DNA from: Deltaproteobacteria bacterium
GTDB lineage: Bacteria; Desulfobacterota; Desulfuromonadia; Desulfuromonadales; Geopsychrobacteraceae
DNA: 64,000 nucleotides
Direction: 5' to 3'
Assembly (NCBI GenBank): GCA_024280335.1
Contig: JAJRQI010000030.1
Span: 1-64,000, forward strand
In this document: positions 27,573 through 53,683 of the stretch, piece by piece
How the letters are laid out: every line of letters starts with the position of its first letter
How positions within the stretch are numbered: position 1 is the first letter of the stretch
Translations under genes and position numbers: made by a program
The notes under the pieces: model-generated
What the model was told of the DNA's origin: nothing
Seen by the model: only the letters and a program-made list of their open reading frames with translations
Database searches by the model: none

Positions 27573-29243
27573 TCAGTCCTCCTCAAAGACCATTTCGGTC
27601 GCGTCACTGCCCGGCAGCACCATTGGGAACGAGTAGGTATCGGGGTGGATCGGCACTTCGACCACCACCGGGCCGGGGATTTCCATCGCCTGCTGCAGCA
27701 CCGCTTGCAGATCGGACTTATCTTTGACGCGTAACGCCTTGACCCCGAAGCCTTCGGAAACCTTGCAGAAATCGACGAAATGGCCGAGACAGGTCGAGGC
27801 GTAGCGCTGGTTGAGCAGCACCTTCTGAAATTGACGGACCATCCCCAGCTTGCCGTTATTGAGGATAATGCACTTGACCGGAATGTTGTACTGCGCACAG
27901 GTCGCCAGCTCCTGGCAGTTCATCTGAAAAGCGCCATCACCGTTGATGGCAAAGATCGCCCGATCAGGATTGCCGAGCGCGGCCCCCATCGCCGCCGGCA
28001 GCGCGAAACCCATGGTGCCCAGACCGCCGCTGGTGATGTACTGGCGTGGACCGGCAAACGGCAGGTAGTTGGCGGTCCACATCTGCGACAGGCCGACATC
28101 GGAGGCGACCACCGGGCTGTCACCGGCCACTGCGGCAATCGCTTCCATCACCTCATGCGGCACCAGATGGTCCCGCTCGGGGCGCGGCAGCGGCCCCTTC
28201 TCTCTGAATTCAGCAATCTCGGCCAGCCACTCGCGGTGGTCGCTCGGTTCAACCAGCGCGACCAACTGCTCCAGCGCCTCGGCAGCGTCGCAAACGATCG
28301 GCAGACCACCCTGCACCACCTTGCGGATGCTGGAGGGATCGATATCGATATGGATAATTTTGGCATTCGGCGCAAAGGTGTCGACCTTGCCGGTCACCCG
28401 GTCATCAAAACGCACGCCGATAGCGATCAGACAATCGCACTGGCCGACCGCCTGGTTGGCATACCAGGCACCGTACATGCCGAGCATACCGACCGACAGC
28501 GGTGACTGCGGTTCCATAATGCCGATCCCCATCAGGGTGTGGGTCACCGGCAGCTGGCCCTTTTCGGCCAGCGCGCGCAACTTATCTGAAGAATTGGACA
28601 GGGTGATGCCGCCACCGGCATAGATCAGCGGCTTCTTCGCCTTGTTGATCATACTGGCAGCGCGCTTGATCTGCTTCAGGTTCAGGGTCGGTTTCTCCTG
28701 ATAACCGCGACGACCGGGTGGTTCGGCATCTACCCGCTTGATCTTCGCCCCCAGCACATCACTCGGCAGATCGATCAGCACCGGTCCCGGACGGCGGGTA
28801 CGGGCGATGTAAAAGGCTTCGTGAATGATTCGCGCCAGATCTTTGATATCGGTGACTACGTAGTTGTGCTTGGTAATCGGTCGGGTGATCCCCGCCATGT
28901 CGGCTTCCTGAAAGGCATCATTGCCGATCTCGGCGGTCGGCACCTGACAGGTCAGAGCGATCATCGGCACCGAATCCATGTAGGCGGTGGCGATCCCGGT
29001 CACCAAATTGGTCGCTCCGGGTCCCGAGGTGGTCAGGCAGACGCCGACCTGCCCGGTGGTCCGGGCATAACCGTCGGCGGCGTGGGCAGCGCCCTGCTCG
29101 TGCCGCACCAGAATATGCCGGATCTCCTTTTCATCCAACAGCGCATCGTGAACCAGCAGTGAGCGGCCGCCGGGATAACCGAAAATTGTATCCACCCCCT
29201 CCTGCTTGAGGCAGTCGAGTAAAATCTGTGCGCCGGTTTTCAT
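27573..29243 (-). CDS. ilvB: Acetolactate synthase large subunit
   Basis: The 556-residue thiamine-diphosphate enzyme condenses two pyruvates (or pyruvate and 2-oxobutyrate) in the first common step of valine, leucine and isoleucine synthesis. Motifs seen: FGYPGG, catalytic Glu49 in RHEQGAAHAADGYAR, the TTSGPGATNLVTG loop, and the ThDP-binding GDGAFQMN...NN. AAGGAGA precedes the ATG at 29243. No ilvN or ilvC follows, so the small subunit is encoded elsewhere. Upstream on the same strand are a leader peptide gene and a terminator, strongly suggesting attenuation. Confidence 0.92.
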   Translation of the reverse strand: MKTGAQILLDCLKQEGVDTIFGYPGGRSLLVHDALLDEKEIRHILVRHEQGAAHAADGYARTTGQVGVCLTTSGPGATNLVTGIATAYMDSVPMIALTCQVPTAEIGNDAFQEADMAGITRPITKHNYVVTDIKDLARIIHEAFYIARTRRPGPVLIDLPSDVLGAKIKRVDAEPPGRRGYQEKPTLNLKQIKRAASMINKAKKPLIYAGGGITLSNSSDKLRALAEKGQLPVTHTLMGIGIMEPQSPLSVGMLGMYGAWYANQAVGQCDCLIAIGVRFDDRVTGKVDTFAPNAKIIHIDIDPSSIRKVVQGGLPIVCDAAEALEQLVALVEPSDHREWLAEIAEFREKGPLPRPERDHLVPHEVMEAIAAVAGDSPVVASDVGLSQMWTANYLPFAGPRQYITSGGLGTMGFALPAAMGAALGNPDRAIFAINGDGAFQMNCQELATCAQYNIPVKCIILNNGKLGMVRQFQKVLLNQRYASTCLGHFVDFCKVSEGFGVKALRVKDKSDLQAVLQQAMEIPGPVVVEVPIHPDTYSFPMVLPGSDATEMVFEED

Positions 29244-29263: not shown

Positions 29264-29405
29264 TTACGTATTCAGTCGGATGGCCTCGGGGTGCCCATTT
29301 CAAGGGCTTGCTGGCGCCAGGATGGCGTCAGCAAGCCCCAAGGATGGGTGCATGCGTCCCTTGGAATGGGCAGCACGAGGCCATTTCCCGAGGGGCTGAA
29401 GTTAC
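29264..29405. repeat. MITE-like element of the GTAACT-TTCAGC family
   Basis: The element runs from ATTACGTATTCAGTCGG to GGGGCTGAAGTTAC and folds on itself through GCCTCGGGGTGCCC...GGGCAGCACGAGGC and GACGCCATCC-type inner arms. It is about 90% identical to 53543-53683 by eye. It lies within the ilvB untranslated leader, between the attenuator terminator and the ilvB start. Confidence 0.7.
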
Positions 29406-29442
29406 AAAATGACAAAGGCCGCGGTTATCTGCCCCGCGGCCT
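29403..29442 (-). terminator. Attenuator terminator of ilvB
   Basis: On the minus strand AGGCCGCGG (29442-29434) and CCGCGGCCT (29424-29416) make a perfect 9-bp GC-rich stem with a 9-nt loop, followed by TTGTCATTTTG. A second hairpin lies upstream (29491-29457: AAAGGGAGC/GCTCCCTTT). The 5' arm can alternatively pair with CGCGGCC at 29521-29515, just after the leader-peptide stop, giving a candidate antiterminator. Confidence 0.75.
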
Positions 29443-29526
29443 GCTCAACTATTTGAAAAGGGAGCGCAGGGTCAGTGCCCGAGCTCCCTTTCGATTCTTG
29501 CAATGAACCGAGGTGGCCGCGAGCCG

Positions 29527-29589
29527 TCAGGTTAGAACGACGACGACAACTGCCAGCAACAGGTTTATGCGAAGAAATATTCGAAACAT
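29527..29589 (-). CDS. ilvB leader peptide (20 residues, valine/leucine-rich)
   Basis: The 21-codon frame reads MFRIFLRINLLLAVVVVVLT and a TGA. AAGGAG lies 9 nt before the ATG (29604-29599). Twelve of 20 residues are Val, Leu or Ile, including five consecutive Val codons next to LLLA and L. This is the hallmark of a translation-attenuation leader controlled by branched-chain aminoacyl-tRNA. It is followed by mutually exclusive hairpins and then ilvB. It is not a member of a named family, but position and composition agree with known ilv leaders. Confidence 0.8.
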   Translation of the reverse strand: MFRIFLRINLLLAVVVVVLT

Positions 29590-29613
29590 GGTTATAAACT
29601 CCTTGTAGATGGG

Positions 29614-29643
29614 ACTCTAGCCGAGCAGCTTCAACTCTGTCAA
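29614..29643 (-). promoter_or_regulatory. Likely sigma-70 promoter of the ilvB leader
   Basis: On the minus strand a perfect -35 TTGACA (29643-29638) is followed after 18 bp by TAGAGT (29619-29614) as a weak -10. Transcription would begin around 29607, only a few bases ahead of the leader-peptide ribosome binding site. The short 5' end is unusual, so an alternative start further upstream is possible. Confidence 0.45.
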
Positions 29644-29790: not shown

Positions 29791-30867
29791 ATGGGCACAG
29801 CCATTTCCAGACAAAGACTCCGTCAGGCCAAATGGGCCTACACCACCCGCCGGGTGGAACAGAAGCAGAAGTTCAGCCTGCTCAGCGGTGACCTTTCGCC
29901 GAATCCTGGCGATTTACTGCTGGCCGAAGTGGTGGAGCTCGGTCAACACAAGCGGCTGGAGTTGGTCACCAGCCGTCGCGCCACCCTGTTCGAAGGGGAT
30001 GAAATTGTTGTCGCCTACGGCAACCGCTACGCCCCCGACCAGTTTGAGGGGGTTCTCCCGGCGGCGCTCGGCAACTGCCGCCTGGTCGCCGCAGGTGGCG
30101 TCGCCGCGCGCCTGCTGAACCGGCACCAGAATGTCCGCAGCGCCACACGGATCAAACCGCTCGGGCTGCTCGCCGACAGTGACGGTCAGCGCATCAATCT
30201 GTGCGACTACCGCTTGCAGCGCTGCGAGAGTCTGCCGAAAAAACCCCTGGTTCTGGTGGTCGCCGGAACCTCCATGAACTCCGGCAAAACTACTGCCTGC
30301 GCCAATCTGGTCAAAGGGCTGGCACGTCGTAAAATCAAGGTCGCCGCCGCTAAATTCACCGGCACCGGAGCCGGGGCTGATTATCGAACCCTGGTGGATG
30401 CGGGCGCCGAGCCGGTTTTCGATTTTCTCGATGCCGGTTACGTCTCCACTTATCGGCTGGACAGGACAGAACTGCTCGACGTGGTCATGACGCTCGGTGG
30501 CGAACTGGTCGCCAGTCAACCTGAGGTCATTATCATCGAAGTCGCAGACGGCCTGCTGCAGCGGGAGACCGCCCGGCTGTTCGCCACCGGCGAGTTCACC
30601 GACTGGATCGACGGGGTGCTGTTCGCCGCCAACGATGCCCTCGGCGCCCAGGCCGGGGTGGCCTGGCTGACCGCCCGCCAATTACCGGTGATCGGGATTA
30701 CCGGGGTATTGACCTCTTCGCCGCTGGCCCGCCGGGAAGCCGAGGAGGTGACCGGTTTGCCGGTCTTCACCACCAGCTCGCTCGCCAGAGTCAGCGTTTC
30801 AGCGTTATTGCACGATTGTCTACACAGCCGACGCCGCATTGAGCAAGAACTGCTGGGCGCAACCTGA
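29791..30867 (+). CDS. P-loop NTPase-like protein of unknown function
   Basis: The 358-residue protein has an N-terminal domain of about 150 residues (ASGVAARLLNR-like region) and a P-loop domain beginning LVVAGTSMNSGKTTACANLVKGLARR, with the loop at about 159-168. AAKFTGTGAGADYRTLVDAGAEPVFDFLDAG follows, recalling dethiobiotin-synthetase/DUF1611 folds. A switch-like IIIEVADGLLQRET is seen later. Nothing identifies a substrate. GGAGGG precedes the ATG. It ends 2 bp before an ABC exporter gene, with a hydrolase gene next, so the three probably work together. Confidence 0.6.
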   Translation: MGTAISRQRLRQAKWAYTTRRVEQKQKFSLLSGDLSPNPGDLLLAEVVELGQHKRLELVTSRRATLFEGDEIVVAYGNRYAPDQFEGVLPAALGNCRLVAAGGVAARLLNRHQNVRSATRIKPLGLLADSDGQRINLCDYRLQRCESLPKKPLVLVVAGTSMNSGKTTACANLVKGLARRKIKVAAAKFTGTGAGADYRTLVDAGAEPVFDFLDAGYVSTYRLDRTELLDVVMTLGGELVASQPEVIIIEVADGLLQRETARLFATGEFTDWIDGVLFAANDALGAQAGVAWLTARQLPVIGITGVLTSSPLARREAEEVTGLPVFTTSSLARVSVSALLHDCLHSRRRIEQELLGAT

Positions 30868-53542: not shown

Positions 53543-53683
53543 GTAACTTCAGCCGGATGGCCTCGGGGTGCCCAATTCAAGGGTGTCTGACGCCAGGATG
53601 GCGTCAGCAAGCCCCAGGGATGGGTTCATGCGGCCCTTGGAGTGGGCACCCCGAGGCCATTTACCGAGGCGCTGAATAGTAAC
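53543..53683. repeat. MITE-like element of the GTAACT-TTCAGC family
   Basis: It runs from GTAACTTCAGCCGG to GCTGAATAGTAAC, with inner arms GCCTCGGGGTGCCC and GGGCACCCCGAGGC and a further GACGCCA-ggat-TGGCGTC hairpin, so nearly the whole element folds back on itself. It closely matches 29264-29405. It fills the gap between def and the LysR gene. Confidence 0.7.

Follow-up and report, generated by a model that had tools for sequence, protein, structure and literature searches.

The Acetolactate Synthase Gene and Its Upstream Region

The locus described here lies in a stretch of 64,000 nucleotides (64 kb; hereafter, the window) and is composed, on the minus strand, of a gene coding for the large subunit of acetolactate synthase (ilvB, 27573 to 29243; TIGR00118, 728.9 bits with a cutoff of 538.35) and of an upstream region that contains a promoter, a short open reading frame (ORF) and several hairpins. 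The IlvB protein contains three TPP-enzyme domains. This ilvB, the gene predicted to be controlled, is an orphan: a tblastn search with the genome’s own ilvN found no ilvN-like stretch in up to 1.5 kb on either side of ilvB in the window’s locus and its related loci (L001 to L029, 29 genomes). Downstream of the window’s ilvB there is a Fic-family gene on the opposite strand. In some relatives (L003, L004, L005, L013 and L019), ilvB is closely followed by an ORF some 250 codons long (252 in L004, where it contains FFGRSVGS) that by reading resembles an alpha/beta hydrolase and is perhaps co-transcribed with it; this ORF was not seen downstream of the window’s gene. The main ilv genes of the same genome (G000:C40) comprise an ilvB paralogue, which encodes a second acetolactate synthase, together with ilvN and an ilvD-like ORF. 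In the stretch covered there, which includes some 248 bases ahead of the ilvD-like ORF, no short ORF containing four Ile/Leu/Val codons in a row was found. The upstream neighbor of the attenuator region, transcribed divergently (29791 to 30867, plus strand), shows weak matches to CbiA/MobB-like P-loop proteins (E 1e-4 to 4e-4).

All the elements between both genes are read on the minus strand. A sigma-70-like promoter (TTGACA-18-TAGAGT, 29614 to 29643) has 10 of the 12 consensus bases, and its TTGACA is kept in 25 of 26 aligned rows, the exception being L018 (TTGACG). A ribosome-binding site, AAGGAG (29599 to 29604), follows, and then a leader ORF of 20 codons, MFRIFLRINLLLAVVVVVLT (29527 to 29589), which contains the putative sensing codons GTT GTC GTC GTC GTT (five Val, 29536 to 29550). 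The 20-residue peptide with its Val run and good ribosome site, already pointed out in a preliminary description of this DNA, was thus found as claimed. No other ATG-started ORF of 10 to 40 codons on either strand of the 64 kb has five consecutive Val codons, and 100 randomized versions of the window (first-order Markov) contained none.

The rest of the element can be divided into segments named A to F, of which A includes the sensing codons. Segment B, GGCTCGCGGCCACC (29512 to 29525), is located directly after the stop codon and could pair with A, C or E. Between the leader and ilvB, there are two GC-rich hairpins: C:D (29456 to 29492, −21.3 kcal/mol; C is the 5′ arm and D the 3′ arm), which is followed by TTTTC and is a possible first terminator, and E:F (29416 to 29442, −19.5 kcal/mol), the predicted terminator hairpin, followed by an interrupted T-rich tail, TTTGTCATTTT (29406 to 29416). 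Where a GC-rich terminator had been proposed after the leader, there is a strong and conserved hairpin, E:F, but its U-tract is weak in the window: only four T were counted in the eight bases after F, as also after D, and a mechanical terminator scan of the window listed neither hairpin. A long palindrome lies between the terminator and the ribosome site of ilvB (29269 to 29400). It was rejected as part of the switch, because it is a copy of a repeat, about 130 bases in length, that matches 47 places in the genome (39 of these matches span some 100 bases or more, and a second copy in the window is at 53548 to 53676), and is outside the conserved attenuator.

Conservation of the Leader Peptide

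Relatives were searched in a set of 98 genomes that includes the window’s own, and genes with at least 71% identity were taken as orthologues of ilvB. Among the matches listed, at least 30 of the 98 genomes carry an orthologue (29 loci, L001 to L029, plus fragments in G001), and 28 of the 30 listed orthologues could be assessed, since the contigs of G034 and G001 contain no upstream DNA. A leader of 17 to 23 codons, with a motif like a ribosome site, is present in all the 28 listed orthologues with upstream DNA. At least three Val codons are found among the last nine codons of all 28 listed leaders and at least four in 26, and 22 have a run of four or more. Conservation of the peptide in relatives had been named beforehand as a test of the attenuator, and its presence in 28/28 agrees with that prediction. 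A first filter recovered 24 leaders, and those of L021 and L023, which have TTG/GTG starts and broken Val runs, were added by reading. In 26 of the 28 listed orthologues the leader lies no more than 650 bases upstream of ilvB; the leader of G032 (L135) is at the end of a contig whose sequence overlaps the beginning of the one with ilvB (L007), and that of G094 (L134) precedes an ilvB whose frame looks broken. The weakest leaders are L014, which has lost its stop and encodes an extended peptide (RRLVLP), and L135 (VVVEN). In the alignment, the start and stop contexts are both conserved and in frame (L014 lacks the stop), and the distance between them varies by whole codons.

Seven further orthologues elsewhere in the class are also preceded by a leader. 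As a control, ORFs with four Val or six Ile/Leu/Val codons in a row were sought upstream of 79 ilvB genes that are more distant (from L031 to L110). Three of these regions (3/79) had a qualifying ORF, versus the 22 of 28 leaders with four Val or more described above; the proportion of 3/79 is not a strict false-positive rate, because this criterion would miss true leaders with broken Val runs. One of the orthologues, L025 (G063:C148), seems to have a reduced attenuator with only one hairpin after A:B, and its post-stop segment seems, by reading, complementary to the 5′ arm of the terminator, with matching changes.

Covariation of the Alternative Pairings

The pairings were evaluated on two alignments, A1 (25 leaders) and A2 (34 rows, adding only nine), L025 being included in neither. 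In A1, the hairpins A:B, C:D and E:F have 91.4% of their cells paired and a covariation of 0.148 (0.133 in shuffled alignments, 3/500), and in A2 their covariation is 0.147 (0.130 shuffled, 1/500). The alternative set, B:C and D:E, has in A1 93.0% of its cells paired, a covariation of 0.196 versus 0.154 (sd 0.009) in the shuffles (0/500) and 19 double-changed cells versus 6.3, values that belong to helices fixed after inspecting the same 25 rows; in A2 the covariation is 0.195 versus 0.152 (0/500). The clearest covarying pair of B:C (column 34 with 91) is G-C in 10 rows, A-U in seven, G-U in five and unpaired in three. When the partners were slid against each other, the paired cells of both sets decreased from 90.2–93.0% to 53.3% or less. 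RNAalifold, run without any hint, selected B:C, E:F and four inner pairs of A:B.

The preliminary description had proposed a different antiterminator, in which the post-stop CGCGGCC (29521-29515, in B) pairs with the 5′ arm of the terminator. The partner, GGCCGCG, is indeed present in the hairpin at 29442-29416, and the pairing forms in the best fold of the window RNA, but in the relatives it shows no covariation beyond that of the shuffles: 0.087 versus 0.089 in A1 (87.5% of cells paired, 298/500) and 0.102 versus 0.102 in A2 (263/500), with the B:E pair 43-149 unpaired in 21 of the 34 rows. Kinship of the rows can by itself raise covariation above shuffled values in the absence of structure, so that the contrast between the two antiterminators, made on the same rows, is safer than either value. 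Because B:C and D:E covary beyond the shuffles and B:E does not, the comparison supports the cascade B:C plus D:E, rather than B:E, as the putative conserved antiterminator across the relatives, and B:E was ruled out as the antiterminator for the group as a whole. Sequence comparison shows the conserved leader and Val codons, the hairpins, and the covariation of both A:B/C:D/E:F and B:C/D:E.

Folding of the Leader RNAs

With the front edge of a ribosome placed some 12 bases ahead of the A site, edges at stop−9 to stop+3 represent a ribosome that sits on the Val run. Folding was evaluated by partition functions of the RNA that extends from this edge to the end of E. Segment E was captured by B or D with a mean probability of 0.82 with the edge at stop−3 versus 0.20 at stop+18, and the value was higher at stop−3 in 25 of 25 leaders. 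With permuted B segments (250 cases), the mean capture was still 0.71, which indicates that the folding result comes largely from the G+C-rich sequence, is weakly specific and adds little to the covariation.

The window’s own RNA departs from the conserved scheme. With the edge at stop−3, B:E has a mean pair probability of 0.99 (the duplex has −21.5 kcal/mol), with C:D nested inside, and B:C and D:E are near zero, making B:E the likely route in the window. In a fold that held only the last 30 leader bases (stop included), B:E remains at 0.91–0.97 without a ribosome, and termination without translation is, therefore, not predicted for the window. In L028, E pairs with B at 1.00, and B is also the main captor in several others (e.g., L005, L011 and L018). 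On the other hand, in L003, L004, L008, L010, L013, L014, L016 and L021 to L024 it is D, and hardly B, that captures E.

Proposed Mechanism and Alternative Explanations

From its layout and conservation, the element is very probably a transcription attenuator of the ribosome-mediated kind, which responds to charged tRNA-Val and governs the stand-alone acetolactate synthase of the valine pathway. The attenuation by branched-chain tRNA charging suggested earlier is, hence, retained, with tRNA-Val attenuation as its best reading, given the leader found in every listed orthologue with upstream DNA. The signal would be valine, and the switch would operate through translation of the leader, stalling of the ribosome, and termination or its relief. 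With ample valine, the ribosome would reach the stop codon and cover segment B, C:D would form, E would pair with F and transcription would end before ilvB. When valine is scarce, the ribosome would wait on the Val run, which is also part of segment A, covering A and leaving B free; B could then capture C, and D, freed in this way, could capture E, so that E:F would not form and ilvB would be transcribed. In the variant predicted for the window, B could capture E directly, with C:D nested.

That an ordinary terminator follows a Val-rich ORF present by chance is scarcely credible. Intergenic DNA often contains strong hairpins on their own, which would favor such a coincidence, but it was rejected on the grounds of the conservation of the leader, the Markov versions of the window and the ilvB controls described above, and the gene upstream is, moreover, divergent. 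An RNA acting as a riboswitch or as a protein-bound leader, in which the Val run would be incidental, is very improbable. It would fit with the observation that, by eye, the DNA of segment B and the hairpins is better conserved than the middle of the peptide. Against it, the Val codons at the end of the peptide are kept in all 28 listed leaders despite the varying length of the run, and no Rfam family was found in the window at its curated score. Between 29200 and 29700 the only Rfam match at E ≤ 1 was F6 (E 0.74, a chance-level match), which is inside the palindromic repeat and outside the element; a known Rfam RNA was, therefore, rejected, as none matches the element.

Other explanations keep the attenuator and differ in the pairings involved. 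It is unlikely that the direct pairing B:E is the only antiterminator and that C:D is a mere spacer hairpin. This arrangement is the best fold of the window RNA, B is the main captor in L028 and several other leaders, and the reduced L025, with one hairpin fewer, seems to pair B directly with the terminator arm; nevertheless, its covariation stays at the level of the shuffles in both 25 and 34 rows, and in the 11 loci listed above E is captured by D. Somewhat more plausible, while still doubtful, is that C:D and E:F are tandem terminators, both opened by the single rearrangement to B:C and D:E. At least five T in eight bases are found after D in 20 of 34 leaders, after F in 27 and after either of them in 32, the window (L001) and L017 being the only ones without such a tract. 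L021 to L024 have six or seven T after D and only two or three after F, suggesting that either hairpin may serve as a terminator. However, in the window D is followed only by CTTTTCAA, and a trade-off between both tracts is not significant (Spearman −0.26, p 0.14; −0.10, p 0.60 without L021 to L024); such a trade-off was, therefore, dropped. The tRNA-Val attenuator with the cascade B:C plus D:E across the relatives is the reading followed below.

Distribution of the Element and a Second Target Gene

A covariance model (R1) was built from the 25 leaders of A1. In 136 genomes of the order, 43 matched at E ≤ 1e-3: 27 of these matches (E 2e-21 or better) correspond to leaders of ilvB, that of G084 (E 3.5e-13) belongs to the leader of a different gene, and the rest are weak. 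The class, with 277 genomes searched, gave 46 with a match at E ≤ 1e-5 (the 27 ilvB leaders and that of G084, a false match in G063 and 17 outside the order). In G063 the model missed the true leader (L025) and matched an unrelated place (E 1.5e-6). Among the 17 matches outside the order, seven precede orthologues of ilvB (70–73% identity) and seven precede an MBL-fold hydrolase, that of G233 precedes a fragment of this hydrolase, and those of G206 and G141 precede neither; the match of G141 is weak and has no leader ORF. The search of the class thus indicates that the element is present in several families, in a minority of the genomes searched. In 395 genomes of the phylum, 15 matched at E ≤ 1e-6, 10 of them outside the class, and the five of these that were examined (L176, L177, L178, L180 and L181) are weak and correspond to other leaders; L181 precedes an acetolactate-synthase-like ORF. 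In L176, L177 and L180, an ORF that we take to be TrpB is preceded by a leader-like sequence containing three Trp codons (TGGTGGTGGCAG) and by GC-rich hairpins; these are probably further attenuators with a comparable layout.

The MBL-fold hydrolase matches Pfam PF00753 and is below the cutoff of the best 25 of the 43 NCBIfam models matched. It was found (E ≤ 1e-50) in 13 of 271 genomes of the class, eight of them with an upstream Val-rich leader ORF (L163 to L170, in G142, G237, G211, G189, G084, G255, G143 and G257), and such a leader is absent upstream of the five lowest-scoring hydrolases (47–51% identity). Some of these leaders have impure Val runs, such as that of G084 (MITNPITTTVVAVVTFVTALRCR). 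Further matches have only a hydrolase fragment (L155 and L157) or no hydrolase (L161). The pairing B:C appears to be kept in the hydrolase leaders, since by reading B has GGCUC-UGCGC or a similar sequence versus GCGC-GGGCC. No ilv operon was seen beside the hydrolase gene among the neighbors read in three genomes. In G211 (L192), an ORF that by reading is like a branched-chain aminotransferase lies about 2.6 kb from the hydrolase.

These data raise the possibility, put forward tentatively and at slightly less than even confidence, of a valine-sensing attenuator module, mobile or duplicated in the class, that would drive a small regulon of unrelated enzymes, the orphan acetolactate synthase and the MBL-fold hydrolase; in many of its instances the module would open two tandem terminators at once. 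If this were true, the module would implicate the hydrolase in valine or branched-chain metabolism.

Relation to Known Attenuators

Membership in the leader-peptide attenuators is supported by most of the features examined (the leader ORF with its ribosome site, the Val codons and the mutually exclusive antiterminator pairing), while the evidence is mixed for the terminator and for the effect of the stall. The ilvBN operon of E. coli is controlled by an attenuator with the ivbL leader, and, like the window, it has a Val-rich leader and a terminator before an acetolactate synthase gene; the likeness is one of description, and the E. coli attenuator controls ilvBN, whereas the window’s gene has no adjacent ilvN-like stretch. 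The attenuator of the his operon of E. coli and Salmonella alternates between A:B, C:D, E:F and B:C, D:E. The same cascade of six segments is found over the aligned relatives, but the his attenuator has His codons and another operon and no homology is claimed, and B:C and D:E are not populated in the window’s own RNA.

Among the closest published cases in the literature consulted in part is the ilvBNC leader of Corynebacterium glutamicum, MTIIRLVVVTARRLP, which contains Val codons and is followed by terminator, antiterminator and anti-antiterminator hairpins studied by mutation (PMC11857589). That leader is found in another bacterial group and before another operon, ilvBNC, and its terminator and antiterminator hairpins overlap (PMC11857589), whereas here two separate hairpins follow A:B and covariation points to B:C plus D:E. 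The ilvB-II, ilvB-OMG and ilvB RNA motifs (found in Corynebacterium, various phyla and Leptospira, respectively) also combine a conserved RNA with an upstream ORF rich in branched-chain amino acids before ilvB, and the authors suggest that attenuation is common for ilvB; our comparison with them is by description (PMC10272879). In the literature searched, we recognized no paper on this attenuator in Geobacter or Desulfuromonadales, and the older comparative attenuator surveys of Vitreschak 2004 and Lopatovskaya 2010, cited in PMC10272879, could already list it; in the text passages available from PMC2965389, ilvB and Geobacter do not appear. Considering the ilvBNC attenuator (PMC11857589) and the ilvB motifs with upstream ORFs (PMC10272879), both consulted in part, this kind of regulation is known and the present instance is new only within the literature searched.

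Biological Significance

Through this element, valine is the predicted and conserved regulatory signal of an acetolactate synthase lacking an adjacent regulatory subunit; as a large subunit that stands alone and is attenuated by valine, this enzyme would be an isoenzyme induced on starvation. For annotation, the gain is a predicted Val attenuator in several families of one class, with pairings backed by covariation and no match in Rfam. The principle of attenuation has long been known; the same switch precedes, in some relatives, a quite different enzyme, and this common regulation would tie the MBL-fold hydrolase, so far uncharacterized, to the supply of branched-chain amino acids.
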